Below, piece after piece: positions 7,662-47,457 of a stretch of DNA of 64,000 nt. This DNA comes from a virus. Below the pieces are notes generated by a model. The model was not told the DNA's origin. It did no database searches and saw only the letters and a program-made list of their open reading frames with translations. Position 1 is the first letter of the stretch. The number at the start of each line of letters is the position of its first letter. The translations under genes and the position numbers were made by a program. The DNA lies in the IMG/VR virus record IMGVR_UViG_3300042879_004902, positions 1-64,000 of that record; one strand, 5' to 3'.

Positions 7662-7739
7662 TTTACGCAGGGTGTATCGACCTAAAACGTAGACAGGCAC
7701 TGGTTTAGGCGGTACCTTTTGTTGAACTGCTGCACCCTC

Positions 7740-8666
7740 ATGCCCCCTGCGTTGCTTGAAATTCCTGCAGCAGTTCTTGGAAGAGAAGAGCTGGAGCGCA
7801 AAATTCATACAACGTACGATCGGACTGCATCGTATAAGCAGTTCGTGGATTATCGATCGGAAGGAGATACCCGGCTCACCATTAACGGAAGTCGTCACTA
7901 CAAGACTCCGTATGGTGCGCTTCCTTCTGTGACAACAATCCTGTCTGCTACCAGTGGGAACAAAGCTGCACTGGAAAGGTGGGCAAAAAAAAATCCAGGG
8001 GGTAGAGAAGCTGCCGCAGCTAGAGGTACCCGCGTTCACTCCCTGATGGAAGAGTATCTTCTTGGTATCAATAAAGATCCCCAGATTGATAACGAAGAAA
8101 TTGCTGAGTTTTGGAGTGGTCTGCCTGAAAAACTGGACAAGCTTGAACGCGTTTTGTGGGCAGAAAACCCAGCTACTCCAGGAGATTTTGCTTGGACGAT
8201 GGGTGGCGATGGTATCAGCCGTGTTTGGCACCCTGGTGTAAAAGAAGGAGAAAATTGGGGCTGGGCCGGAGCGCCAGATATCGTTGCTGAATACAAAAAC
8301 AAATCAGTTCTGGGAGACCTGAAAACAAGTAACGGACTGTACTTTTCTAGGTGGCCTGGTCCTGAAACTCCTAAGAACGAATACGCAATGCGGCGTTCTG
8401 GGTTTATGAAATACCAGAAGTGCATGATGCAGATGGGTGCTTACGCCATGGCACTGGAGCACACCATTGGAGTTGTGCCGCAGATCCTGATGATTTTTGT
8501 AGCTACACGAGAGCGTTCTCAGGTTTTTGCAGTGCAAGGTGGCACCATTGAAAAGTACAAACAGAAGTGGCTTGATGCTGTTGAGAAATATTACAGTGAA
8601 ATCCTTCCTGCAGAAAAAATGAAAGAGCTTGATATGACCCTTATTGATGGGGACTCTCGGGACTAA
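7740..8666 (+). CDS. PD-(D/E)XK exonuclease (RecB/Cas4-like, MGME1-type)
   Basis: 308 residues. Motifs in order are YGALPSVTTIL, the GTRVHSLMEEYL helix with His100, GAPDIVAEY with Asp180, GDLKTS with Asp193 and Lys195, and the later QMGAYAMAL helix. These make up a RecB-family PD-(D/E)XK site needing a divalent metal. Related phage exonucleases process double-strand ends for recombination or degrade host DNA. The gene lies just upstream of the primase-helicase. ATG 7740 is preferred to TTG 7719. Confidence 0.85.
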   Translation: MPPALLEIPAAVLGREELERKIHTTYDRTASYKQFVDYRSEGDTRLTINGSRHYKTPYGALPSVTTILSATSGNKAALERWAKKNPGGREAAAARGTRVHSLMEEYLLGINKDPQIDNEEIAEFWSGLPEKLDKLERVLWAENPATPGDFAWTMGGDGISRVWHPGVKEGENWGWAGAPDIVAEYKNKSVLGDLKTSNGLYFSRWPGPETPKNEYAMRRSGFMKYQKCMMQMGAYAMALEHTIGVVPQILMIFVATRERSQVFAVQGGTIEKYKQKWLDAVEKYYSEILPAEKMKELDMTLIDGDSRD

Positions 8667-8805: not shown

Positions 8806-11409
8806 GTGACGACAGCAACCCCGGAGCCACAGCGTCCAAGGAAAGGTCTCAAGCCTGGACAGATTGATCTCAGTCTGATACCGGTTGATTGGGCGCTTAC
8901 TCCGCTGCGGGATAAGCGTGCATACGTTGCTGGTTGGACATCTCAACCTTTTTCCATTGAGCAAATCCGCAAGGAGCTGGATGAAGGGCGTGCGACTGGG
9001 GTTGGCCTTCTGAGTGGACAGTGGTCCAATGAATACGCGCTTGTTTGGGTTGATATTGATGGTCCGGATGCCATCCCAGCCTTAGAAGAGCTGGCTGGTG
9101 GTCAACTTGATGTTATTTTCCCGCCCACACTGACTGTTTCATCGGGTAAGCCCGGCAGGCAACGGATGCTTTACAGCGTCCCAACAGCCAAAATTCCGCT
9201 GTTGCCGGATAAAGCAACAATCAAAATCGGGATTCCGTCGTTTGAAATCCTGTTCCGCTCCAGGCAAGGAGCAATTATGGGTGTCCATCCTGAAACGGAA
9301 GGATACTATACAACAACCCACGGTGGCTTTGAGTTTGCTAAGAATCCTCCGGAGCTGCCGGAGTGGATGTATGCCGCAATTGGTCGTGCTTTTCCCACCA
9401 ACAAGTACCGCAAACCTGTAACCGGTGGTGTAGTAACTCAGAGCATCAACATTCACTACGAGGATGGCTCTAAGTTCCAGATGGAAGAAGCCGTCAACGA
9501 GGCCAAGGTTTACCTGGAGCACCTTGACCTTGAACGGGCTATCGATTACGAAGAGTGGTTAGCCGTAGGTATGGCTCTCCACCAGGTGGATGATTGCTTG
9601 CTCAGTTCCTGGATTGAGTGGTCTGCTCAGGCAGAGAACTTTGAGGCGGGTGCTTGTGAAGATAAGTGGCGCACATTTGAACGGCTTCCAGGTGGTCCAA
9701 GTCCTGAAGGTGCTCGTGGTCTGCAGACGCTCAGGGCAAAGGCAAAGGAAGATGGTTACTTAGAGCTTGGTGGTTTTGTTGTTGAATCACCTGAAACTCT
9801 TGCACAGCGTGCTCAAGAATTGTTTGGTGAAGAAGGAGAAGGCGAAGAAGGTGCTTTTGTTCCTGGTATTGCTGGTCTTTTTCAACGGAACATGCGGCAT
9901 CTTTTTGGTGGCCCTGATGAAGATGAGGAAGAGGAAATCAGGAGCACTGCAAAAGGACGTGGTCGTCCAAAAACTCCACCGTCGTCGGAGCTGGCAAATC
10001 TTGTTACCGGAATGGTTAATGAGATTGGTTGGAGGTACGACCCCAAATACGACACCTTTATGTTCTACCACCGCGATCGTGGTATCTGGCGTCGTGAAGA
10101 CTATGCTCAAGAATTTAAGCACACGGTTCAAGATCTGTTTATTCGTGAAGCAATCCCCACGCCAAGTGGTTTTACCTCTCACTTAATCAATGACGTTGTC
10201 AACCTGACTCAGGCGTACATCTCGCAGCCTGATTGGAATGACGACGACGACATGCTGGCTTTCAGTAACGGTGTCCTAGAGATCAGTACCGGTGAATTTT
10301 TGGATCATGACCAGGAAAACTACCTGACCTGGGGTTTGGATTTTGATTATGATCCCAGTGCTGACCCTGGTCCCATCATTGATTGGCTGCGTCGGACGCA
10401 ATACAACGATGAGGATCGGGTCCAGGTGCTCAGGGCCTGGTTAAGAGCTTGTCTGCTCGGGCAGGGCCATGAGCTGCAGCGTTTCATGGAGGTCATTGGT
10501 CCAGGGGGTCGTGGTAAATCGACTTTTGCTAACCTCTGCTGTGCTCTTGTTGGTTCAGGTAATTACGCCAGTACAACGTTGAACCAGCTGGAGCAGAGTC
10601 GGTTTGAGGTGGCATCCATTAAAGGAAAACGGCTGACACTGATCAATGACTCGGAACGTTACGGCGGTTCTGCTCAGATCTTTAAGGCCTTGACCGGTGG
10701 AGATAACCTGCGCTTTGAAGAAAAGAATAAGAATGTGGGTGAACCGTTTGTGTACACCGGCATGGTTATGGTCTGTGCCAACGAACCAATTCAAACTACA
10801 GACAACACTTCGGGTCTTACCAGGAGGAGGCTGACGCTTGAGTTTAATCGTCCCCTCTACGATAAAAACTCGGAAGCCAAGGAGATGATTAAGCTCGATA
10901 ACGGTATTGTAAGAGGCTTATGGAAGCATTATTTACCAGGCTTAGTGAACTGGGTTCTGCAGATGACCGACAAAGAAATGCGGGAATATCTGTTGGATAC
11001 TTATGACAAAGTCCCATCGTTGCGTCGCGTCAGGAATGAAATCCTACTGAACAGTAACAACTTGATTGAGTGGCTGCAGTCAGAAGTTGTGCACGCTCCA
11101 GATCACACCTCTTCTGTTGGTAAGAAGATCCCAGCAGCAAAGGATGCTCCAGAGCGGTACAACAACAGTAATCACCACCTGTATGCAAGCTACTGTTCTT
11201 ACGCGGAAGATACTGGTAGTAAGCCAGTGGGCCAGAAACGGTTTATTGCTTTGCTGTTAGATTGTTGTGTCAACCAGCTTGGCCTGAAAGACGTGCGTCA
11301 GTTCAGCAAGCAAGGTCGTCCATTTATTAAAGGACTTGCTATCCGAGCTGGAGATACCAAGTTTCAGGATTATCCGACTATTCTTCCTGAAGGAATGAAA
11401 GATTCGTAA
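8806..11409 (+). CDS. Bifunctional primase-polymerase / D5-type SF3 helicase
   Basis: 867 residues. An N-terminal AEP-type prim-pol domain (about 15-200) carries the catalytic acidic motif VWVDIDGPD and the later SSGKPGRQRM strand. A PriCT-like helical segment follows (YEEWLAVGMALHQV, about 245-310), then an acidic linker. The C-terminal half is a D5_N/SF3 ATPase with Walker A GPGGRGKST near residue 566, ALTGGD, and a sensor segment MVMVCANEP. It would synthesise primers and unwind DNA at the fork. GTG 8806 is the start that keeps the basic N-terminus. No DNA polymerase gene is in the window. Confidence 0.92.
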   Translation: MTTATPEPQRPRKGLKPGQIDLSLIPVDWALTPLRDKRAYVAGWTSQPFSIEQIRKELDEGRATGVGLLSGQWSNEYALVWVDIDGPDAIPALEELAGGQLDVIFPPTLTVSSGKPGRQRMLYSVPTAKIPLLPDKATIKIGIPSFEILFRSRQGAIMGVHPETEGYYTTTHGGFEFAKNPPELPEWMYAAIGRAFPTNKYRKPVTGGVVTQSINIHYEDGSKFQMEEAVNEAKVYLEHLDLERAIDYEEWLAVGMALHQVDDCLLSSWIEWSAQAENFEAGACEDKWRTFERLPGGPSPEGARGLQTLRAKAKEDGYLELGGFVVESPETLAQRAQELFGEEGEGEEGAFVPGIAGLFQRNMRHLFGGPDEDEEEEIRSTAKGRGRPKTPPSSELANLVTGMVNEIGWRYDPKYDTFMFYHRDRGIWRREDYAQEFKHTVQDLFIREAIPTPSGFTSHLINDVVNLTQAYISQPDWNDDDDMLAFSNGVLEISTGEFLDHDQENYLTWGLDFDYDPSADPGPIIDWLRRTQYNDEDRVQVLRAWLRACLLGQGHELQRFMEVIGPGGRGKSTFANLCCALVGSGNYASTTLNQLEQSRFEVASIKGKRLTLINDSERYGGSAQIFKALTGGDNLRFEEKNKNVGEPFVYTGMVMVCANEPIQTTDNTSGLTRRRLTLEFNRPLYDKNSEAKEMIKLDNGIVRGLWKHYLPGLVNWVLQMTDKEMREYLLDTYDKVPSLRRVRNEILLNSNNLIEWLQSEVVHAPDHTSSVGKKIPAAKDAPERYNNSNHHLYASYCSYAEDTGSKPVGQKRFIALLLDCCVNQLGLKDVRQFSKQGRPFIKGLAIRAGDTKFQDYPTILPEGMKDS

Positions 11410-11525: not shown

Positions 11526-13373
11526 TCACTTTGCCACCCAACCAGTGTTTCCGGTACCTGTCTCTTTGACATAGAGCGTGGTCCCGGTGCCTCCGTTTGT
11601 ACGCAAATACAAGGCGCCAGCAGTTGCAGTAATTGCGCCTTCCGGGCTACCTGCTCCGTTGTATATCCCACGGTCAGACGTACCAAACAAATACCCACCG
11701 TTGTTGGTTATGCGAGCAACGGTATTGGCAAAGCCATCTTGAAAAGCGATGGGAGCTGTTGCGTTGTTTCCTTTAAGCGTCAGAACTGAGCCGTTAGAAT
11801 TAAGCGTCAATGCCGTGCTGGCGTTCAACGTAATGTTGGTTGAAAGCAGGGTTGTCGCAGAGCTGCCGAGGACGGTCGTGGTGGCGTCGCCTATGTTGAC
11901 TGGAATTGCAACCGATGTGGTATTTATGGTGTTTCCGATGAGGATGTTATTGGCGCTTCCTGAATCAATGTTTAAACCATAGGTGTAAACGTCTGTAGCG
12001 TCTTTGCCACTAATTACGTTACCAATAACTGAATTAAAAGTTGAAGTAGAAGTTAGCCGAATGGCGTCAATCAAAGTTGGGTTTGGTTCAGTATCAGTTG
12101 CGCTGGCAAAAATGTGATTACCAGTAACTGTGCAGTACGAAGATCCCAGCAAAGAAATAGCATAATTACAGTTTTGAAAGCTGTTACCAATAATTGAACA
12201 CTTGCTGCAGTTATCAAAACGAACGCCGTCGTCCGTAGACGAGTCATTTGTAATGCCAAGAATCTGGCAGCCACCGGTTACGGTAATGCCTGCTGAGTTT
12301 ATACCGTAGATGGCTGGTCCTGCGTTACTTGACCCCACAAAGTATCCACCGTTGACAGTGATGCAACCGGGGCCATCGGCGCCATCGATCCTAATTCCAT
12401 TGGTTTTGTAGGCATCAATGATGGGAAGGTTAATCTGGACGTCCCAGTTGTAGTCATTTCCGGTTGCTACAATCCAAAATCCATAGCTGGTATTAGCCGT
12501 CTCACACGTATCCGTAAAAATGTCCCTTATGTCTGATCCAACAATGTAGTATCCTGCAGAAGTTGCTGAGCTTGGCGTTCCGTTTCCTACCACGTCACAT
12601 TCAGTGATCTTTATACTAGCTTGCGGTGAAATGCCGCCGCTGGTAAAAGGAGTGCAGTCGAGCACAAAACCTATAAATTTATTTGCAATTGTAAAGCCAG
12701 GGGAAGCCGAATAGTCGTTTAACAGCTGTACAAAACAGCGTTCAATGTATGTTCCAGCCGTGTCGTTACAGTAAAAACCTGTCGACCAGTTGCCTACTCT
12801 TACGTTTTGAACTTTGGCGTTTTGAACGGCTGCTGCACTCGTAGCACCAGAGCCATCTAGGACGACTGCAGCGTCGTTGGGGCCAGGATTTTGCGGAAAA
12901 GTAGGCGTTACAGTGCACCGCAGGTAAAAGTTTTGAATCGTCGAGTATTCATTCAGGTTGCTGCCTGTTATTCCTATTTTAATCGCCGGGCCTGCTGTGG
13001 TTTTGACGAGCACAGGAAGGTTCTCTTCCCCTACCAGGGCTTTGTAGCCATTTAGAAGCTCAAGTGTGCTAGTTATCTTGTATGTGCCCTTGGGAACGAA
13101 GACGGTCTTTCCGGTGTTGATAGCAGCCTGAAAGGCCGCAGTGTCGTCAGTGCCGTTGCCTGCAAAATCAGCGTTTCCTACTGCACCAAAATCCTTGACG
13201 CTGACCACATCAAGTAGCTTGCTATTAACCGTCTGCGCAACTGCACCAGTACCAGACTGCGTAAAACCTAACTTTGTTGCTTCAATTGCCGCATTTCCAG
13301 CAACTTGTGCATTGGTAATTGAGCTATTGCCGGGTACAGCAACTACGTCAGGTTGCTTTCCTATATATGACAC
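11526..13373 (-). CDS. Tailspike with pectate-lyase-type beta-helix
   Basis: 615 residues. A short particle-attachment N-terminus (MSYIGKQPDVVAVPGNSS) is followed by VKDFGAVGN...GTDDTAAFQAAI and VFVPKGTYKI, the classic entry to a right-handed parallel beta-helix (Pectate_lyase_3 group). Repeating NSFQNCNYAISL / NHIFASATD rungs follow. A short C-terminal knob (GTTLYVKETGTGNTGW) is typical of phage tails. Probable role: binding and depolymerising host surface polysaccharide. The catalytic residues cannot be assigned from sequence alone. Confidence 0.88.
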   Translation of the reverse strand: MSYIGKQPDVVAVPGNSSITNAQVAGNAAIEATKLGFTQSGTGAVAQTVNSKLLDVVSVKDFGAVGNADFAGNGTDDTAAFQAAINTGKTVFVPKGTYKITSTLELLNGYKALVGEENLPVLVKTTAGPAIKIGITGSNLNEYSTIQNFYLRCTVTPTFPQNPGPNDAAVVLDGSGATSAAAVQNAKVQNVRVGNWSTGFYCNDTAGTYIERCFVQLLNDYSASPGFTIANKFIGFVLDCTPFTSGGISPQASIKITECDVVGNGTPSSATSAGYYIVGSDIRDIFTDTCETANTSYGFWIVATGNDYNWDVQINLPIIDAYKTNGIRIDGADGPGCITVNGGYFVGSSNAGPAIYGINSAGITVTGGCQILGITNDSSTDDGVRFDNCSKCSIIGNSFQNCNYAISLLGSSYCTVTGNHIFASATDTEPNPTLIDAIRLTSTSTFNSVIGNVISGKDATDVYTYGLNIDSGSANNILIGNTINTTSVAIPVNIGDATTTVLGSSATTLLSTNITLNASTALTLNSNGSVLTLKGNNATAPIAFQDGFANTVARITNNGGYLFGTSDRGIYNGAGSPEGAITATAGALYLRTNGGTGTTLYVKETGTGNTGWVAK

Positions 13374-14885: not shown

Positions 14886-15074
14886 ATGGACGTTCTTCAA
14901 ACTTTTGATAACGGAACAACAATTGAATTTGGTGAAGATAATCACGGCAACCAAGTTCATCGCATCTGTACTCCCAGCGGGTCGATGTGCAGGTTTGCAG
15001 AGCCATACCACGTAGCACTCACCTATGCGCAGCAATACGAAGAGTTCTACGCGGTTAAGCCGGACTCAAAGTGA
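14886..15074 (+). CDS. Small hypothetical protein
   Basis: 62 residues, MDVLQTFDNGTTIEFGEDNH, ending in AYAVKP-like sequence. The N-terminal half reads as a beta hairpin. It is divergent from the leftward gene at 14836 and just upstream of the structured RNA region. Function unknown. Confidence 0.55.
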   Translation: MDVLQTFDNGTTIEFGEDNHGNQVHRICTPSGSMCRFAEPYHVALTYAQQYEEFYAVKPDSK

Positions 15075-15100
15075 GTCTTGTTGAGACAGACCTAAGAACT

Positions 15101-15433
15101 GTGTGGGTACTACTTGTGCCAGTACATTCTTAAAGTGCACGGCTATGTACTCTCACAGGTAGAACCCACACTCAGAAACCACCGCTTGGTCCGCCCCAAA
15201 GGGCAGAAATTTGTCTTGAAATGGTAGCGTTGTGAACATTTCGGTGTTTGTGGTTCTCAAGAAATTTCTTTGTTTGGCTGAGATCCCTTGCGGTGCAAGG
15301 GCATCTGATAAACGACCAAGAGGAGTCAAGATTTCGGCTATTTCACTTCCCGTGTAATTTTGTGGGTACTACTCTTGACCGTATATTGGAGGCCCAAAAA
15401 GCCAAAAATGTACGGGCACAGGGCTAACCCACA
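15101..15433 (+). ncRNA. Array of five stem-loops, candidate novel structured RNA
   Basis: No open frame covers this stretch. Instead there are consecutive hairpins: (1) GTGTGGGT...ACCCACAC (15101-15171) with inner TAC/GTA, TGTG/CACA and AGTACAT/ATGTACT; (2) GCCC-CAAA-GGGC (15193-15204); (3) AGAAATTT+CTTGA / TCAAG+AAATTTCT (15205-15269); (4) CCCTTGC-GGT-GCAAGGG (15285-15301); (5) TGTGGGT...ACCCACA (15361-15433) with inner CCGTATATTGG / CCAA...TACGG. Hairpins 1 and 5 share the 5' sequence TGTGGGTACTACT. A short A-run/T-run follows at 15450-15466. Lack of group I or II core motifs argues against an intron. Strand is inferred from the neighbours. The 470-base gap to 15544 holds nothing else. Confidence 0.55.
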
Positions 15434-15544
15434 AAAAGTCTTCTAAGATAAAAAAGGCGTTTTTTTGACTCCTTTTGGTCGTTTATTAAAACCCTTGACA
15501 CGACAGGGGTTTCGACCTACTCTGCACTTGAACACTAAAACCTC

Positions 15545-16711
15545 ATGGAAATTCTGCGTTTTTTCTTTGAGTCCAGCCTGTCCAGCGATGATGCAGTGGC
15601 TTTTGCCAAAGCTGTTCAGATCTGCTTCCACACCCTTGGTGGCGACAGGTGTTGGTGTATGGACAAGAGCAAACACTCTTCTTTTCAGGGGTTTGTCACC
15701 AGTCACGGTTCCCGGTTGCTCTACAAAAACCAAGACGCCAGACCGTTTCTTCTTGCTCTCAGCAACCGCTTCTACAGTGACGACAGGCCAGTTATTGTTC
15801 GCAGGTCCTGCTGCACCTCTAAGTACTGTCTGAACCCCTCCCACGCTTATTACGGCACCAGGAGCGACGTTGCACTTGAAAACGAAACCAAAAAACCACA
15901 AGCAAAAAAACGCCGCACTGTGGTAACAGTAGAAATGGCGGAACAAATGCGTCAATGTCGAGACGCAGGTGAGACTATCCTGAAACTGTCAAGACGATAC
16001 AAGCTGCCTTATCACGTTGCACGTCGCATTTGCAGTGAAAATGCATATTCCAGTTACAACGGAAACTTCAGTACGAAATATTTAGAAAAGTTGTGGCAAA
16101 AAACGATTGAAAACTGCGTGGAAATTTGTAAGAATAATCCAGAAGCATCCCGCTCCTACAACCTGGCGTATCACGTGTCAACTCATCTTGAATGCCCCTG
16201 GCACCGGAAAGGACAATCCAGTCACAAAGGCAACTTTGGCCTCATGGGAGAATGCCTGGACTGCATGGAAGAGATTAAGAAAGGACGCTGCACGGTTGAT
16301 GTGCGGGAGTTTGATCTTGACTGGTATTGGCAGGTCAAGCGCTTCTGGGAACAGGTTGATATTAAATCCAATTACGAGTGTTGGCCTTGGCGCGGAGCAA
16401 CACGTCGGGACAACAAAGAATCGTTGGCGTATTTTCCGTCTCCTTTTCACTCGGGTAAAGTTCATTCCGCTCCCAGGGTTGCTTTTTGGTTGAGCCGTGG
16501 GTACACAGGCAAATATCGAGTCTTTAACAAAAATACGTGCGAGCCCTTTTGCTGCAACCCGTTGCACATTACAATAAGGGAATTGAAAGGCTGCCCTGAT
16601 CCAACGGGTATTGCCGATATACAACTGGTTCATACCAATGTCTTCCAGCACTACAGAAAAAATCTTCAGCAAGAGCAGTCAAATTCTGCCGTCGAACTAC
16701 CACCTTCCTGA
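15545..16711 (+). CDS. Protein with two HNH (His-Me finger) domains
   Basis: 388 residues. An N-terminal half-domain ends CCTSKYCLNPSHAYYGT (about 90-106). A helix-turn-helix-like linker follows (MAEQMRQCRDAGETILKLSRRYKLP). The C-terminal domain runs ECWPWRGATRR...HSAPRVAFWLSRG...CEPFCCNPLHITI, matching HNH_3-type nucleases with C-x-N-P-x-H. A middle CPWHRKG...CLDCMEE pair may bind zinc. Such proteins are usually phage homing or free-standing nicking endonucleases. Its two-domain layout and position directly after a structured RNA are unusual. Confidence 0.75.
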   Translation: MEILRFFFESSLSSDDAVAFAKAVQICFHTLGGDRCWCMDKSKHSSFQGFVTSHGSRLLYKNQDARPFLLALSNRFYSDDRPVIVRRSCCTSKYCLNPSHAYYGTRSDVALENETKKPQAKKRRTVVTVEMAEQMRQCRDAGETILKLSRRYKLPYHVARRICSENAYSSYNGNFSTKYLEKLWQKTIENCVEICKNNPEASRSYNLAYHVSTHLECPWHRKGQSSHKGNFGLMGECLDCMEEIKKGRCTVDVREFDLDWYWQVKRFWEQVDIKSNYECWPWRGATRRDNKESLAYFPSPFHSGKVHSAPRVAFWLSRGYTGKYRVFNKNTCEPFCCNPLHITIRELKGCPDPTGIADIQLVHTNVFQHYRKNLQQEQSNSAVELPPS

Positions 16712-17643: not shown

Positions 17644-17898
17644 ATGAAAGTCATCACTGTGCAGAAACTTCAAGAGGATCTTGAGGCAATCCTGGATGAC
17701 GTGTCAGACAACAAAGCTATCTATAAAATCCAAACCGAAAACGGCGATCTTATTTTGATGCCTTACGACCACTACGAAGTAATGGCAGACGCATACAAAG
17801 AATGGGTTGACGAACCTAAAAGTAGTTTAAAAGAGGAATTCGACCCTTATCCTTTGCCTGTTATGTATGTTGACGATGCTGAACCTAAACCGCTTTAG
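17644..17898 (+). CDS. Phd/YefM-like antitoxin-type protein (orphan)
   Basis: 84 residues. MKVITVQKLQEDLEAILDDV then IYKIQTENGDLILMPYDHYE follows the Phd/YefM layout: N-terminal beta-helix DNA-binding fold, then a disordered toxin-binding tail. No RelE/Doc-like toxin is adjacent; the next gene is convergent. It may act as a DNA-binding regulator or as an antitoxin against a host toxin. Confidence 0.65.
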   Translation: MKVITVQKLQEDLEAILDDVSDNKAIYKIQTENGDLILMPYDHYEVMADAYKEWVDEPKSSLKEEFDPYPLPVMYVDDAEPKPL

Positions 17899-23738: not shown

Positions 23739-24079
23739 TTTGCTGAGATTCTGAATGTGACAATAGCATTAGTTCCACCAATTTCTTTGTAGAAATTAGC
23801 ACGAACTTTTTTCATTGGAAATCCATAACTGTTATAAACGTAGTTACCGTTTTCTTTGATAATCTCAGAAAGCAAAGGAGCATACGTCGTTCCATCTAGA
23901 GTTCCCTCAAGTCGGACAACTATACTTTCATCAATGTTAGTTACGTTTACATTAAGAGTGTAGTTTCTTGTCGAAAGATAGTTAATGACATAAACTTCAG
24001 CAGGATCGGTGTATCCAGGAAAATCCAAAGCGTCATAAATAAAAAACGCTGTTTGCTGGTAACTCTCAAAGAAACTCAT
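23735..24079 (-). CDS. Virion beta-protein (tail/fibre module)
   Basis: 114 residues, with YTLNVNVTNIDESIVVRLEG, TLDGTTYAPLLSEI and MKKVRANFYKEIGGTNAIVT. This strand pattern is shared with the immunoglobulin-like module repeated in the C-terminus of the 24141-26759 protein. It probably assembles with the fibre proteins that follow upstream. The end overlaps the oxygenase stop by four bases. Confidence 0.65.
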   Translation of the reverse strand: MSFFESYQQTAFFIYDALDFPGYTDPAEVYVINYLSTRNYTLNVNVTNIDESIVVRLEGTLDGTTYAPLLSEIIKENGNYVYNSYGFPMKKVRANFYKEIGGTNAIVTFRISAN

Positions 24080-24140
24080 TAGCAGTGAATTTTTTTATGA
24101 CTTGATTAACAGTATGCCGTATGTGATTTCAGCATTACTA

Positions 24141-26759
24141 TCAGTCGTGTGCCTTAATTAGGACATAGCCAGGGGTGACGCCTGAGCCAGCTGCGCTCAC
24201 TCTAACGCGCATCAGTGCAGCGTTGATATCAAGCACGGTCAACTGCACCGTGCTACTAGCCACAGCGGTGAGCGGAGTGCCGATTGAATACCAGCTGGCT
24301 CCGTTGTCGTCTGAACCTTCCATCTGAAGCGCAGGGGCGGCGGTGGCAGCACCGATGTTCACCACCAGCTGGGCGCGGTTGCCAGCATCCCTGGTGTCCA
24401 GGCTTGGCGTTGTGCTGTTGAGCGTGGTGAGCACGATCGAGCGGTCGATCAGCTGGCGCACGGCTTCGGAGCTGTTGCTGTTCTGCAGGCGGTTGATCGC
24501 CCTGGTGAACGATGGCGTGGTGCCAGCCACGGACTGCACATAGCGCACCCGGTTACCGACAATCCTGATGAGCGGTGAGCGGTAGATGCCTGTGCCCGTA
24601 ATCCTCGGGAAGTCGTAGACCTTGAACCAGTTGCCGCCCGAATCGTCGGATTCTTCGATCGCCACGTCCAGCGTTGGCGTGGTGCCGCTGACTGCAGTGA
24701 CCGGAATGCTGACGCTGTAGCTGGTGCCAAACGTCGGTGTGAATGCCGCCGTGGTCGTGGTTGTTGTCAACGCCGCTGAGGCCACATCCGCGATGATGCC
24801 AGGCAACGCCAGGTTGGCGGAGGTGACGGCTGCGACGGTGCCGGTGCCGATGTTGGCGGTGACGGTGCCGCTCACCGGCTGGGTGCCCAGCGCACCGCCC
24901 AGCACCTGCACCGGCAGCGCATGGCTGCCGACAGGATCGCTACTGGCTACTCGGATCTTCTGCCGTCCCTGATCCTCAATCTGAATGAATCCTGTCGTCA
25001 GTGTGGTGGTGCTGGCCGGTGCAGTACTGCCGTTCTGCACCACGATGAACAGGTACAGCACCGTCTCAGGATCGGGGACGTTCTCGATCCTGCTGGCTCG
25101 GTTTGTCCACTGGTAGCCGGTGTTACTGGCCACCAGCGCATCAGAGAATCCGGCCGTGAGTACGTCGAAGTTGATCTGCCCGACATGGCCAGGCGATGCA
25201 GTGGTGTTGATCGTGGCGGTGGTGTTGCCGCTGTTCCAGCCGCGACGCTGTGCGTCGAAGCTGGCATTGGTCGCAGTGGTGCCGCTGTACTCCAACTGGA
25301 TGTAGTTCCAGCCGTACAGGGTCAGGGTGCCGCTACCGGATGCTGGCCATGCTGCGACGGTGAAGTTGACTGTGAGCCCTGAGACACTGGCAATGGCATA
25401 GCGGCCTGGGATGCCAGCGGCGCCAGTGATTCGCGACAGTCGCACGCTCTGGCCAACATTGGCCGCTGTGAACGGGTTGGTAGTGGGGAAAGTGACCGTG
25501 ACGCTGGTGGCGCTGTTGATTGTGTAGGACAGCGCCGCACCAATCAAATCAGCCAGCTCAAACCTGAATGTCTGGTTGGCGATCCTCTGAGACAGGATCA
25601 CCTTCTGGCGTGCCAGCAACGAGCCTGAGAACGTATCAATCGAGCGGATCACCGTTTCGCTGTTGGCGGTGGTGCCAGTCGTGATGACAAGGTTTCCGGC
25701 CGACTGGTTCACCGTCATGCCGCTGCCCGTCTGCAGCAGGGTAAACTCCTCAGCCGCTTTGCCGACGATCCCGCTGCCAACTTCAGCAAAGCCCGCACGC
25801 ATGAATGCCGGGTTGCTGTTGGTGACCGGCACAGGCGTGGCCCGCAGCTCGTTGTCCGTCAACCCGCCACCGCCAGCCGGCAACACCACCGGCAGCCGGC
25901 CGCTGTCCAGCGCCGGAAGCTTCCCGTTCACTGCTGCCAGCGTCGTCTCTGTTGCAGCGCCAGTTGGGAGCGGTAGGGCGCTGGCGCTCACCGGCTGCGT
26001 GGCTTGCCAGAACGTGCCAGATACCGGCACTGCAGTGGCTCGCAGCTCGGTGTCAGTCAGCGGGCCAGAGACCGTGGGGGTTCCACTGATAGTGACCGCA
26101 GGAGTTCCAGTGATCGAAACAGTTCCACTGATCGGCTGCGTGGCCTGAAAAAAGGTGCCAGTTACCGGAACTGCTGTGGCTCGGAGTTGCGTGTCCGTAA
26201 GCGGCCCGCTTACGGAAACCGCTGCTGCGCGGAGTTGCGCATCAGTTAACGGTCCTGAGACTGCAGCTGTACCTGTAATTGAAACACTACCGCTGATTGG
26301 TTGCGTAACGCCGCTACCATCCACTGGCATGCGACCGCTTACCAGTGCTGGTGTTTTCCCATCAATGCTGGTTAAACTGCTGTTACCACTTGTTTGATTG
26401 GCTGCAGTAGCTGCGCCTGTTGGCAATGGCAAACTGCTTACACTTGCCAATACAGCAGAAGCACGTAATTCCGAATCCGTAAGGCCGCCAGAGCTTGTAC
26501 CTTCTTCTACAAAAATCTGAAGCCTATCACCAGAACTCATTGCACTGGTATCGTAAGTTAACGCAAGAGTTGTATTACCCCCACCAGTACTAACTGTTCC
26601 CCCTAGAGAATTAACATCAAACTCGTAAATTATAATGTTGTCTGTTACATTTGTAATCAATAAAAATTTTTCTAACGTATACGTACCAGGAATTGTTACT
26701 GTTCCAACAGTAGAAACACCCGGCGTAAAGGTGTAACTTGTAATCAATTTCTTAGCCAT
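24141..26759 (-). CDS. Large repeat-containing tail adhesin
   Basis: 872 residues. The N-terminus is a small beta domain (KLITSYTFTPGVSTVGTVT). Residues about 110-310 are repeats of LTDxQLRATAVPVSGTFxQ and QPISGTVSITG; then come beta sandwiches and two related C-terminal modules (LDVAIEESDDSGGNWFKVYD / LQMEGSDDNGASWYSIG). The LTD(T/N)ELRA..PVPV repeat is common in phage tail fibres. The middle and C-terminal coding sequence is visibly more G+C-rich than the 5' end, suggesting mosaic origin. Confidence 0.75.
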   Translation of the reverse strand: MAKKLITSYTFTPGVSTVGTVTIPGTYTLEKFLLITNVTDNIIIYEFDVNSLGGTVSTGGGNTTLALTYDTSAMSSGDRLQIFVEEGTSSGGLTDSELRASAVLASVSSLPLPTGAATAANQTSGNSSLTSIDGKTPALVSGRMPVDGSGVTQPISGSVSITGTAAVSGPLTDAQLRAAAVSVSGPLTDTQLRATAVPVTGTFFQATQPISGTVSITGTPAVTISGTPTVSGPLTDTELRATAVPVSGTFWQATQPVSASALPLPTGAATETTLAAVNGKLPALDSGRLPVVLPAGGGGLTDNELRATPVPVTNSNPAFMRAGFAEVGSGIVGKAAEEFTLLQTGSGMTVNQSAGNLVITTGTTANSETVIRSIDTFSGSLLARQKVILSQRIANQTFRFELADLIGAALSYTINSATSVTVTFPTTNPFTAANVGQSVRLSRITGAAGIPGRYAIASVSGLTVNFTVAAWPASGSGTLTLYGWNYIQLEYSGTTATNASFDAQRRGWNSGNTTATINTTASPGHVGQINFDVLTAGFSDALVASNTGYQWTNRASRIENVPDPETVLYLFIVVQNGSTAPASTTTLTTGFIQIEDQGRQKIRVASSDPVGSHALPVQVLGGALGTQPVSGTVTANIGTGTVAAVTSANLALPGIIADVASAALTTTTTTAAFTPTFGTSYSVSIPVTAVSGTTPTLDVAIEESDDSGGNWFKVYDFPRITGTGIYRSPLIRIVGNRVRYVQSVAGTTPSFTRAINRLQNSNSSEAVRQLIDRSIVLTTLNSTTPSLDTRDAGNRAQLVVNIGAATAAPALQMEGSDDNGASWYSIGTPLTAVASSTVQLTVLDINAALMRVRVSAAGSGVTPGYVLIKAHD
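25830..26470 (-). repeat. Tandem repeats inside the large adhesin
   Basis: Codes several units of LTDxxLRA(T/A)xV(P/S)V-S-G followed by QPxSGTVSITG-type strands. Unit length varies between about 18 and 35 residues, and the units nearest the 5' end are less regular. Such repeats build elongated beta shafts. Confidence 0.65.
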
Positions 26760-33700: not shown

Positions 33701-33784
33701 GGGAGCATGGCGGAATTGGTAGACGCAGCGGACTTAAAATCCGCAGGCAGCAACGCTGTGGGGGTTCAAGTCCCCCTGCTCCCA
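33701..33784 (+). tRNA. tRNA-Leu (UAA)
   Basis: Acceptor GGGAGCA (33701-33707) pairs with TGCTCCC (33777-33783), discriminator A. The anticodon loop CTTAAAA gives anticodon TAA. A long variable arm and T-arm GGGGG-TTCAAGT-CCCCC are present. CCA is not encoded. Unlike most cyanobacterial tRNA-Leu(UAA) genes it has no intron, yet an intron of that type sits in the capsid gene. Confidence 0.95.
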
Positions 33785-33786
33785 TT

Positions 33787-33859
33787 GCTGGATTAGCTCA
33801 GTGGTCAGAGCACTCGCCTTGTAAGCGAAAGGCCGTCAGTTCAAATCTGACATTCAGCT
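33787..33859 (+). tRNA. tRNA-Thr (UGU)
   Basis: Acceptor GCTGGAT (33787-33793) pairs with ATTCAGC (33852-33858) with one G-U; the anticodon loop CTTGTAA gives TGT; the T-loop reads TTCAAAT. It follows tRNA-Leu by two bases. Its last base overlaps the stop of the leftward gene at 33859. Confidence 0.92.
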
Positions 33860-46020: not shown

Positions 46021-47159
46021 TCAAACGATGGTGAAAGCTGCGGTGACGAAGTCCTTGTTCAGGTTGGCAAAGCCAGCGTACAGCTGCCAAATCAAGATGA
46101 TAAAGCGGCTGAAGTCATCGTTGTTGTTGATGAGAACCTGAGCGTTGGGGCCACCGATGCCCACGCCAACGGCCTGAGGACCGAAGAACAGAGCAGGAGG
46201 GGTGTTGTGAGACACAGCGCCGAGACCGTCGCCAGTGTCCACAGTGATGGACTTGTCAGCAAAGTTGGTGGACTCGAAGAAACGTACGCCTTCAAAGACA
46301 AAGCCAGAAGGCATGATCGGTTCACCAGCCACGAATTGAGCTTGGCCGTACTGACCGCCGCCATAGATGGAGGCGTTGGGAGCCATGGCACCCATCAAGG
46401 GGTTAGGCTGGCCCATGCCAGGGTAACGAGCCACTTCACGGAAACCTTGGTCAGCACGCAGATCCTTCATGAAGGAGGGATCAGCAATGCAGCGGTAGTA
46501 ACCATCAGCAAAGACGGGCACGTTGCGCTTACGGAGTTGCTTGACAACTTCCAGAAGGTCGGTCTTAACATTGAACTTATAGCGCTCAGAGGCATACTCA
46601 GTAGCGGAATAAGCAGTCAGCGTGGTAGAGCCAGTCCTGATCTTACCGTTGGGGTAGTAGTAACCACCTTGGGTGTCAGAAGAGGCACCACGAGCTTCCG
46701 ATTTCGAAAACTCATCAAGGAACACACGATCGCGCCAGCGGCGATAGTCATCCAGCAGGGTCAGCGAACCAATGGACTGGTGGAACATGTTAAGGTTCCC
46801 GGTGTCCAGCAGCAGACGCTGAGCGGTCATCAGAGTCTCACGAGCAATTTTGAAAGTGCTCGGGAGGTTGGAGTTGTTCGGGTCGGCAGGACCAGTGTAC
46901 TCACGCAGAGAGACGAGCACTTTGTCCTTAACGATGGAGCGGCTATTAGCCGTACCAATCGTTTGGTCTTGGGTACGCTCACGCTGAGTTTTGGTGCCGG
47001 GGTTGCCCCAGAAACGGTACCGGTCTAACTGAACAGTTTGACCAGGCTGTTTAGTGAAGTCGTGGACAACAACAGGCTCGGCTGCCATTTCCACAATATA
47101 AGCCGGGTGGGGACGGTACAGCTCCGCGCCCAACAGCTTGGGAAAATCGTTCTCCTGAT
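46021..47159 (-). CDS. Major capsid protein, N4-gp56-like (exon 2)
   Basis: About 378 residues after the proposed splice, beginning QENDFPKLLGAELYRPHPAY. HPAYIVEMAAEPVVVHDFTK then PGQTVQLDRYRFWG, RERTQDQTIG and KDKVLVSLREYTGPAD match the N4-gp56/DUF4043 capsid group with an HK97-like fold. No ATG precedes ENDFPKLL in frame; the frame is closed upstream by TGA inside the intron. The only internal starts (TTG 47133, ATG 47088) would cut into the conserved part. The N-terminus must therefore come from an upstream exon. Confidence 0.88.
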
Positions 47160-47457
47160 CTCCAGTCTCCTGAAGGGGTGGACTATCTCTTCACCCTGTA
47201 AGGGTGCCGGGCGCTAATGGCGTATTACGAATGAAGCGTCATTCACCGCCTAGTCTCTGCACCTTCCAACTACGTACTTAGTTGGCTTGGCTCAGGATTA
47301 CCCTCGACTTGACGTTAGGGCTTCCCTGAATTCACCCGGTTTTCACTGATCAGTTGCTTGATCAGGCGACAACGTTGACTACTCAGCTAAGGCGGAAAAA
47401 CCTATCAGGATCTGAGTTAGCTATCGATAAACATGTTGGTAATTCAGCGTAAGTTTT
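47160..47457 (-). other. Group I intron (IC3-type core) in the major capsid gene
   Basis: Read on the - strand, the four conserved core elements occur in order: P, TTCAGGGAAGCCC near 47330; Q, AATCCTGAGCCAAGCC near 47300-47283; R, GGAAGGTGCAGAGACTA near 47265-47250; S, AAGAGATAGTCC near 47192-47180. GACTA/TAGTC makes P7; GAATGA-CGCT-TCATTC makes P8; CACCCT-TAC-AGGGTG lies before S. These closely resemble the intron of cyanobacterial tRNA-Leu(UAA). A 5' hairpin TTCAGC/GCTGAA fits P1. There is no endonuclease frame inside. The ends (after ...CAGCT at 47458 and after G47160) are the best in-frame choice but are not certain. Confidence 0.85.

Follow-up and report, generated by a model that had tools for sequence, protein, structure and literature searches.

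The window, the whole 64,000-nucleotide stretch of DNA analysed here, covers a 64,374-base virus record almost completely and holds a non-coding gap between a short conserved open reading frame (ORF) and an HNH endonuclease-like gene. Within the gap lie an upstream hairpin and a large imperfect palindrome, both carrying copies of one half-site. The elements of the locus, and the replication gene upstream, are as follows:

8806–11409 (+), replication protein of 867 aa, with Prim-Pol, PriCT_2, D5_N and DUF5906 (SF3 helicase) domains and a winged-helix-like C terminus
14886–15074 (+), conserved 62-aa ORF of unassigned function, bounding the gap on its upstream side in most relatives
15075–15544 (no strand), non-coding gap of 470 bases from the 62-aa ORF to the HNH gene, with homologous gaps in 58 distinct loci (tblastn synteny, alignment)
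15101–15128 (+), half-site 1, GTGTGGGTACTACTTGTGCCAGTACATT, left arm of the upstream hairpin
15144–15171 (−), half-site 2, inverted, right arm of the upstream hairpin
15273–15300 (−), left mirror of the promoter-like element (reverse complement against the right-hand element of related locus L039, 15303–15331: 90% over 29 nt)
15308–15329 (+), left outer arm P1 of the large palindrome, with paired columns reaching 15333
15340–15348 (+), left strand of the inner helix, around TTTCACTT/AAGTAAA (helix 2 of the covariation analysis)
15360–15387 (+), half-site 3, left arm of the tip hairpin
15407–15434 (−), half-site 4, inverted, right arm of the tip hairpin
15446–15454 (+), right strand of the inner helix (helix 2 of the covariation analysis)
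15465–15486 (+), right outer arm P1′ of the large palindrome, running beyond the originally predicted end
15495–15523 (+), TTGACA-N17-TACTCT element oriented towards the HNH gene; relatives repeatedly show TTGRCR/TTGNYA and a CAGGGTTT-like spacer (alignments)
15545–16711 (+), HNH endonuclease-like gene of 388 aa, with phrog_1872/3593 in its C-terminal part and the palindrome always immediately upstream

The original prediction described 15101–15466 as an array of hairpins with no coding capacity and no group I or II core motifs, and both negative statements are borne out. The sole ORFs of the gap (58 and 59 aa) recur only in a 99.5%-identical contig; an Rfam search of the gap at gathering and permissive thresholds returned nothing relevant, and no intron or tRNA was found at 15101–15466. 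A terminator-like site was sought in the gap and none was found, and a generic sigma-70 scan makes no call at the TTGACA-N17-TACTCT element. Among isolated phages, blastn gave no match, and neither did tblastn with the HNH and tail-like proteins as queries. Elsewhere in the window, adjoining tRNA-Leu(taa) and tRNA-Thr(tgt) genes lie at 33701–33859 (+), a group I intron (Rfam RF00028, 92.7 bits) at 47159–47399 (−) adjoins the major head protein ORF (46021–47133), and a Phd-like antitoxin gene (phrog_375) occupies 17644–17898 (+). The G+C content, around 0.46 in the rest of the genome, rises to as much as 0.60 at 24000–26000, within a virion protein ORF (24141–26759).

Folded as RNA, positions 15101–15466 have an MFE of −126.9 (z −5.0; 0 of 100 shuffles as good), and the complementary strand also folds well over chance (z −3.7), as is expected for a DNA palindrome. 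These coordinates truncate the element: an inverted repeat (15308–15329 with 15465–15486, 95% match over 22 nt) encloses the last hairpin, and this second hairpin is the tip of an imperfect palindrome of approximately 180 bp. With the right arm included, 15080–15500 reaches an MFE of −158.3 (z −6.7), and 15276–15510 folded as single-stranded DNA gives z −7.6. The strong fold behind the predicted five consecutive helices therefore stands, but a row of equal helices does not, as a larger helix surrounds the last hairpin.

The two outer hairpins are copies of one another (78% identity over 32 nt), each an inverted pair of a half-site of approximately 28 bp, giving four half-sites in total. They had been predicted to share their TGTGGGTACTACT and ACCCACA strands, and a zero-mismatch search of the window places TGTGGGTACTACT...ACCCACA in these two hairpins only; their inner stems, said to differ while still pairing, do pair but are not unrelated, being copies of the one half-site. 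A matrix scores the four sites at 33.6–37.2, and no other position in the 64 kb exceeds 11.7; as it was made from those same sites, the informative part is the drop to the next score. A second copy of the palindrome was sought in the window and none was found.

IMG/VR searches gave 34 loci with the HNH protein and 69 with the primase. There were 58 distinct gaps, of which 54 were long enough for alignment, with 29 representatives at <88% identity. Where sequence extends, the gene order is 62-aa ORF, gap, HNH gene, next gene, and tail-like gene; one clade has lost the 62-aa ORF or carries a version that escaped recognition. The same palindrome occupies the same place in the 54 aligned relatives, which are uncultured phages related to Synechococcus phage S-EIV1. 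Its core aligns throughout (kept motifs TTTTACTT..., the tip hairpin, and ...AAGTAAA), and its outer arms are fast-changing yet complementary. DNA folding gives z < −3 in 21 of the 29 groups and is weak in some A+T-rich members. Half-sites number two to five per phage—four in the window, five in L039 and L040, four in L029 and L009, and two in the others—and are confined to the gap; among the extra half-sites of L039 and L040 is a lone copy that is inverted.

RNAalifold on the MAFFT alignment returned only 8 pairs, and pairs were therefore picked by a Watson–Crick-only column search, which biases the percentage paired upward. Because this choice of pairs favours structure, both shuffled and slid controls were used, the latter retaining relatedness but not that bias. 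Across 27 sequences, both-sided changes occur in 41 of 59 pairs, and compensatory cells number 235, against 113 (sd 8) in shuffled and 77–112 in slid controls. The conserved structure originally suspected is thus upheld by compensatory changes among homologues, with no conserved protein frame across the region. Long-range pairing of GTAGGG with CCCTAC, which runs up to the HNH start codon, reaches significance in only 7 of 29 groups; in the gaps of L053, L030, L036, and L026, a pair such as GTAGGGGTTG/CAACCCCTAC spans the palindrome and ends just before that codon.

Strong folding, covariation, conserved unpaired stretches, and a strand shared with the HNH gene would all suit a structured RNA, non-coding or regulatory, such as a leader or a guide that serves the nuclease. 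An RNA helix tolerates G.U but not A.C, whereas in a DNA inverted repeat both are one and the same mismatch seen on opposite strands. The two were counted with symmetric scoring, and 117 bacterial SRP RNA copies run through the same script served as the control, SRP RNA being chosen since tRNAs are absent from the related loci (none in the 41 searched). In 29 divergent palindromes of the window lineage, G.U numbers 45 and A.C 51; in 14 palindromes of the S-EIV1 lineage, described below, the figures are 42 and 35. Combined, they stand at 87 versus 86, compared with 275 versus 59, nearly 5:1, in the SRP control (Fisher p = 1e-13), and one-sided changes within clades led to G.U 140 times and to A.C 136 times. 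The G.U excess expected of a structured RNA family is therefore found in neither lineage. In L097, the plus strand folds much better than the minus strand (−80.6 versus −47.0), and other groups show the reverse.

It is mainly the G.U count that leads us to conclude that the element is selected as DNA and to reject an RNA gene. Half-sites also recur as modules, and the lone inverted copies in L039 and L040 are as expected of protein-binding sites; these points, together with the lack of an Rfam match or terminator-like site in the gap, make an RNA highly unlikely. The predicted regulatory RNA is consequently disfavoured, and a guide RNA for the neighbouring nuclease finds no support in the HNH gene, which shows no RNA-guided nuclease family. 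The 388-aa protein has no Pfam, NCBIfam, or PDB match and matches phage HNH PHROGs only; a structure search gave no significant match, and the RuvC–HNH architecture of IscB, looked for in this protein, was not found. The locus resembles the IscB/HEARO RNA (OMEGA) arrangement in having a structured region immediately upstream of an HNH gene and differs from it in its protein, its DNA-like mismatches, and its fixed genomic position. The element is a DNA palindrome with repeated half-sites and is very likely functional.

A comparable arrangement exists in a second lineage. By replication protein, the closest cultured relative is S-EIV1 (35% identity over 98% of the protein), whose protein has the same Prim-Pol/SF3 domains as that of the window, namely, Prim-Pol (PF09250), PriCT_2 (PF08707), D5_N (PF08706), and DUF5906 (PF19263). 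The strongest palindrome of S-EIV1 lies downstream of the primase at approximately 7.8–8.0 kb of the record and has nested arms; a 13-bp half-site, ATCTTACATATCC, is present there in three exact copies and one with 2 mismatches (7716–8118) and nowhere else in 79 kb. An S-EIV1 locus devoid of an HNH gene was considered and rejected, as tblastn had missed the gene directly 3′ of the palindrome, which a profile search assigns to phrog_1872 HNH endonuclease. The window and S-EIV1 HNH proteins share only the C-terminal nuclease domain of approximately 80 aa. Searches of this lineage gave 26 loci, 24 of them testable (some contigs are represented twice), and in 22 of the 24, one marginally, the strongest palindrome of the locus lies no more than approximately 1 kb upstream of the HNH gene and, where a primase is present, between the two genes. 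S-EIV1 and its relatives thus have a palindrome of other sequence than that of the window in the same order of PrimPol/SF3 primase, palindrome, and HNH gene; the sequences differ widely among groups, and the span of approximately 245 bp and the symmetry persist. An S-EIV1-like contig (L243, 4100–4310) bears a nearly perfect palindrome spanning approximately 244 bp, the strongest observed in this analysis.

The window primase scores slightly under the cut-off of the P4-family primase model TIGR01613. Its last 180 residues, modelled with AlphaFold, have a mean pLDDT of 64, with most of the relevant part at 75–90, and a helix-helix-wing shape is predicted at residues 105–159 of this segment. A comparison of the model with 350,542 PDB chains ranks the P4 origin-binding domain 1KA8 first (probability 0.89, E 0.07; not significant at E 0.001), a modelled likeness that is suggestive. 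In L118 (LR797314), an uncultured freshwater phage and distant relative at 33% identity, tandem repeats of approximately 20 bp (TTTGTGCTGTTGG, 13123–13194) directly follow the primase stop codon and are possibly an iteron origin.

Proteins of this kind have a plasmid counterpart. The Prim-Pol/SF3/winged-helix protein of the Sulfolobus plasmid pRN1 depends on a 100-bp stem-loop that lies downstream of the gene encoding it, and the isolated stem-loop restores replication at this experimentally mapped origin; in related plasmids, the structure is kept with very low sequence conservation (PMC4234260, PMC3869888). The authors proposed the same origin for BPP-1-type phages, whose protein has PriCT_2 (PMC4234260, PMC3869888). 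Two groups agree on the stem-loop requirement but dispute the mechanism. This origin is the closest precedent. As in the pRN1 family and its proposed BPP-1/BIP-1 counterpart, the window encodes a Prim-Pol and SF3 helicase protein, with PriCT_2 as in BPP-1, and a large non-coding inverted repeat lies downstream of the replication gene, preserving its structure while its sequence diverges. It differs from pRN1 in its size (approximately 180–250 bp versus approximately 100), in the repeated half-sites that pRN1 lacks, in the other genes that separate it from the primase, and in the coupled HNH gene; an origin role, mapped in pRN1, is here a proposal. The alpha protein of phage P4 binds repeats (as described in PMC4234260), and the window resembles P4 in its P4-family primase/helicase, in the predicted C-terminal fold, and in half-sites clustered at one site in both orientations, as in the P4 iteron origin. 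Unlike P4, it has an AEP (Prim-Pol) rather than a Toprim primase and a single nested palindrome locus, with half-site binding putative. The element combines a stem-loop, as in pRN1, with repeats, as in P4, and adds an HNH gene.

The position between primase and HNH gene in two lineages, together with the functional precedent of pRN1, makes a replication-linked structure the best fit of the three possibilities originally raised. The leading reading, which we put at about even chances, is that the palindrome is the phage replication origin or an accessory initiator-loading site. Under such a scheme, the half-sites would be bound by the predicted C-terminal winged helix of the primase/SF3-helicase protein (8806–11409), which would place its helicase on the palindrome and melt the latter or extrude it as hairpins, with DNA synthesis then primed there, in the way proposed for the pRN1 stem-loop origin and used by P4 alpha at its iterons. 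Several observations weigh against an origin or give it no clear support. In S-EIV1, cumulative GC skew has its extremes at 35.3 and 74.5 kb, with no turn at the palindrome (7.9 kb), and in the window the skew shows no clear pattern. The primase-to-palindrome distance varies from approximately 1.8 to 9.6 kb in the window lineage, whereas the HNH gene is a constant neighbour; in the S-EIV1 lineage, this distance is approximately 1.5–2.8 kb. The primase itself is questionable as the binder, since its C terminus is 73%–86% identical across clades while the half-sites differ, and palindrome divergence tracks the HNH protein better.

That divergence underlies the main rival—possible, though the less favoured—in which the neighbouring HNH protein uses the palindrome as its operator, target, or cutting site. 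This protein, which has an HTH-like middle part, would bind the half-sites and either control its own promoter or nick the palindrome, for example to start replication or to resolve its products. The palindrome lies directly upstream of the HNH gene throughout, S-EIV1 relatives included, and a TTGACA-N17-TAnnnT element stands between it and the HNH start. Palindrome divergence correlates with HNH divergence (r 0.92–0.94), the N-terminal and HTH parts tracking best, and the partial r is 0.68–0.70 given the primase, 0.84 given the tail-like gene, and 0.85 given the overlapping next gene; the palindrome–primase partial r is about 0. Rate differences and linkage may be the source of this correlation, and tight physical linkage alone could produce it; however, the overlapping next gene, nearly as close on the map, tracks the palindrome less (0.72), and linkage may thus not be the whole reason. 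Primase-bearing contigs in which no HNH gene was detected are fragments and cannot separate the primase from its HNH partner. Against the HNH protein as the binder, that of S-EIV1 shares only the nuclease domain, and a simple operator would be expected to span less than 180–250 bp. Some packaging sites and mobile elements also have palindromes with adjacent HNH nucleases, yet a packaging (cos/pac) site, a telomere-like site, or a fixed mobile element with terminal inverted repeats is very unlikely here: the terminase is 36 kb distant, contigs pass through the palindrome rather than ending there, and its position is identical in all relatives, with a single copy in the window.

Origin and nuclease could also be parts of one system. 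A three-part module, which we regard as rather doubtful, would consist of a PrimPol/SF3 initiator, a large palindrome that forms a cruciform and preserves its shape through rapid sequence turnover, and an HNH nuclease that recognises and nicks this palindrome to start or resolve replication. If true, this would be a nuclease-assisted stem-loop origin, undescribed in tailed phages as far as the literature searched shows.

The comparison of G.U with A.C against an RNA control offers a simple separator of DNA palindromes from RNA genes in genome scans. The origins of most uncultured phages are unknown, and an exact comparative candidate is given here; as the lineage includes the cultured isolate S-EIV1, this candidate origin is directly testable. 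The idea of a PrimPol-type initiator paired with a stem-loop origin, drawn from pRN1 and BPP-1, would thereby reach beyond a few replicons and take in dozens of aquatic phages, with a constant HNH nuclease partner added to the pairing.
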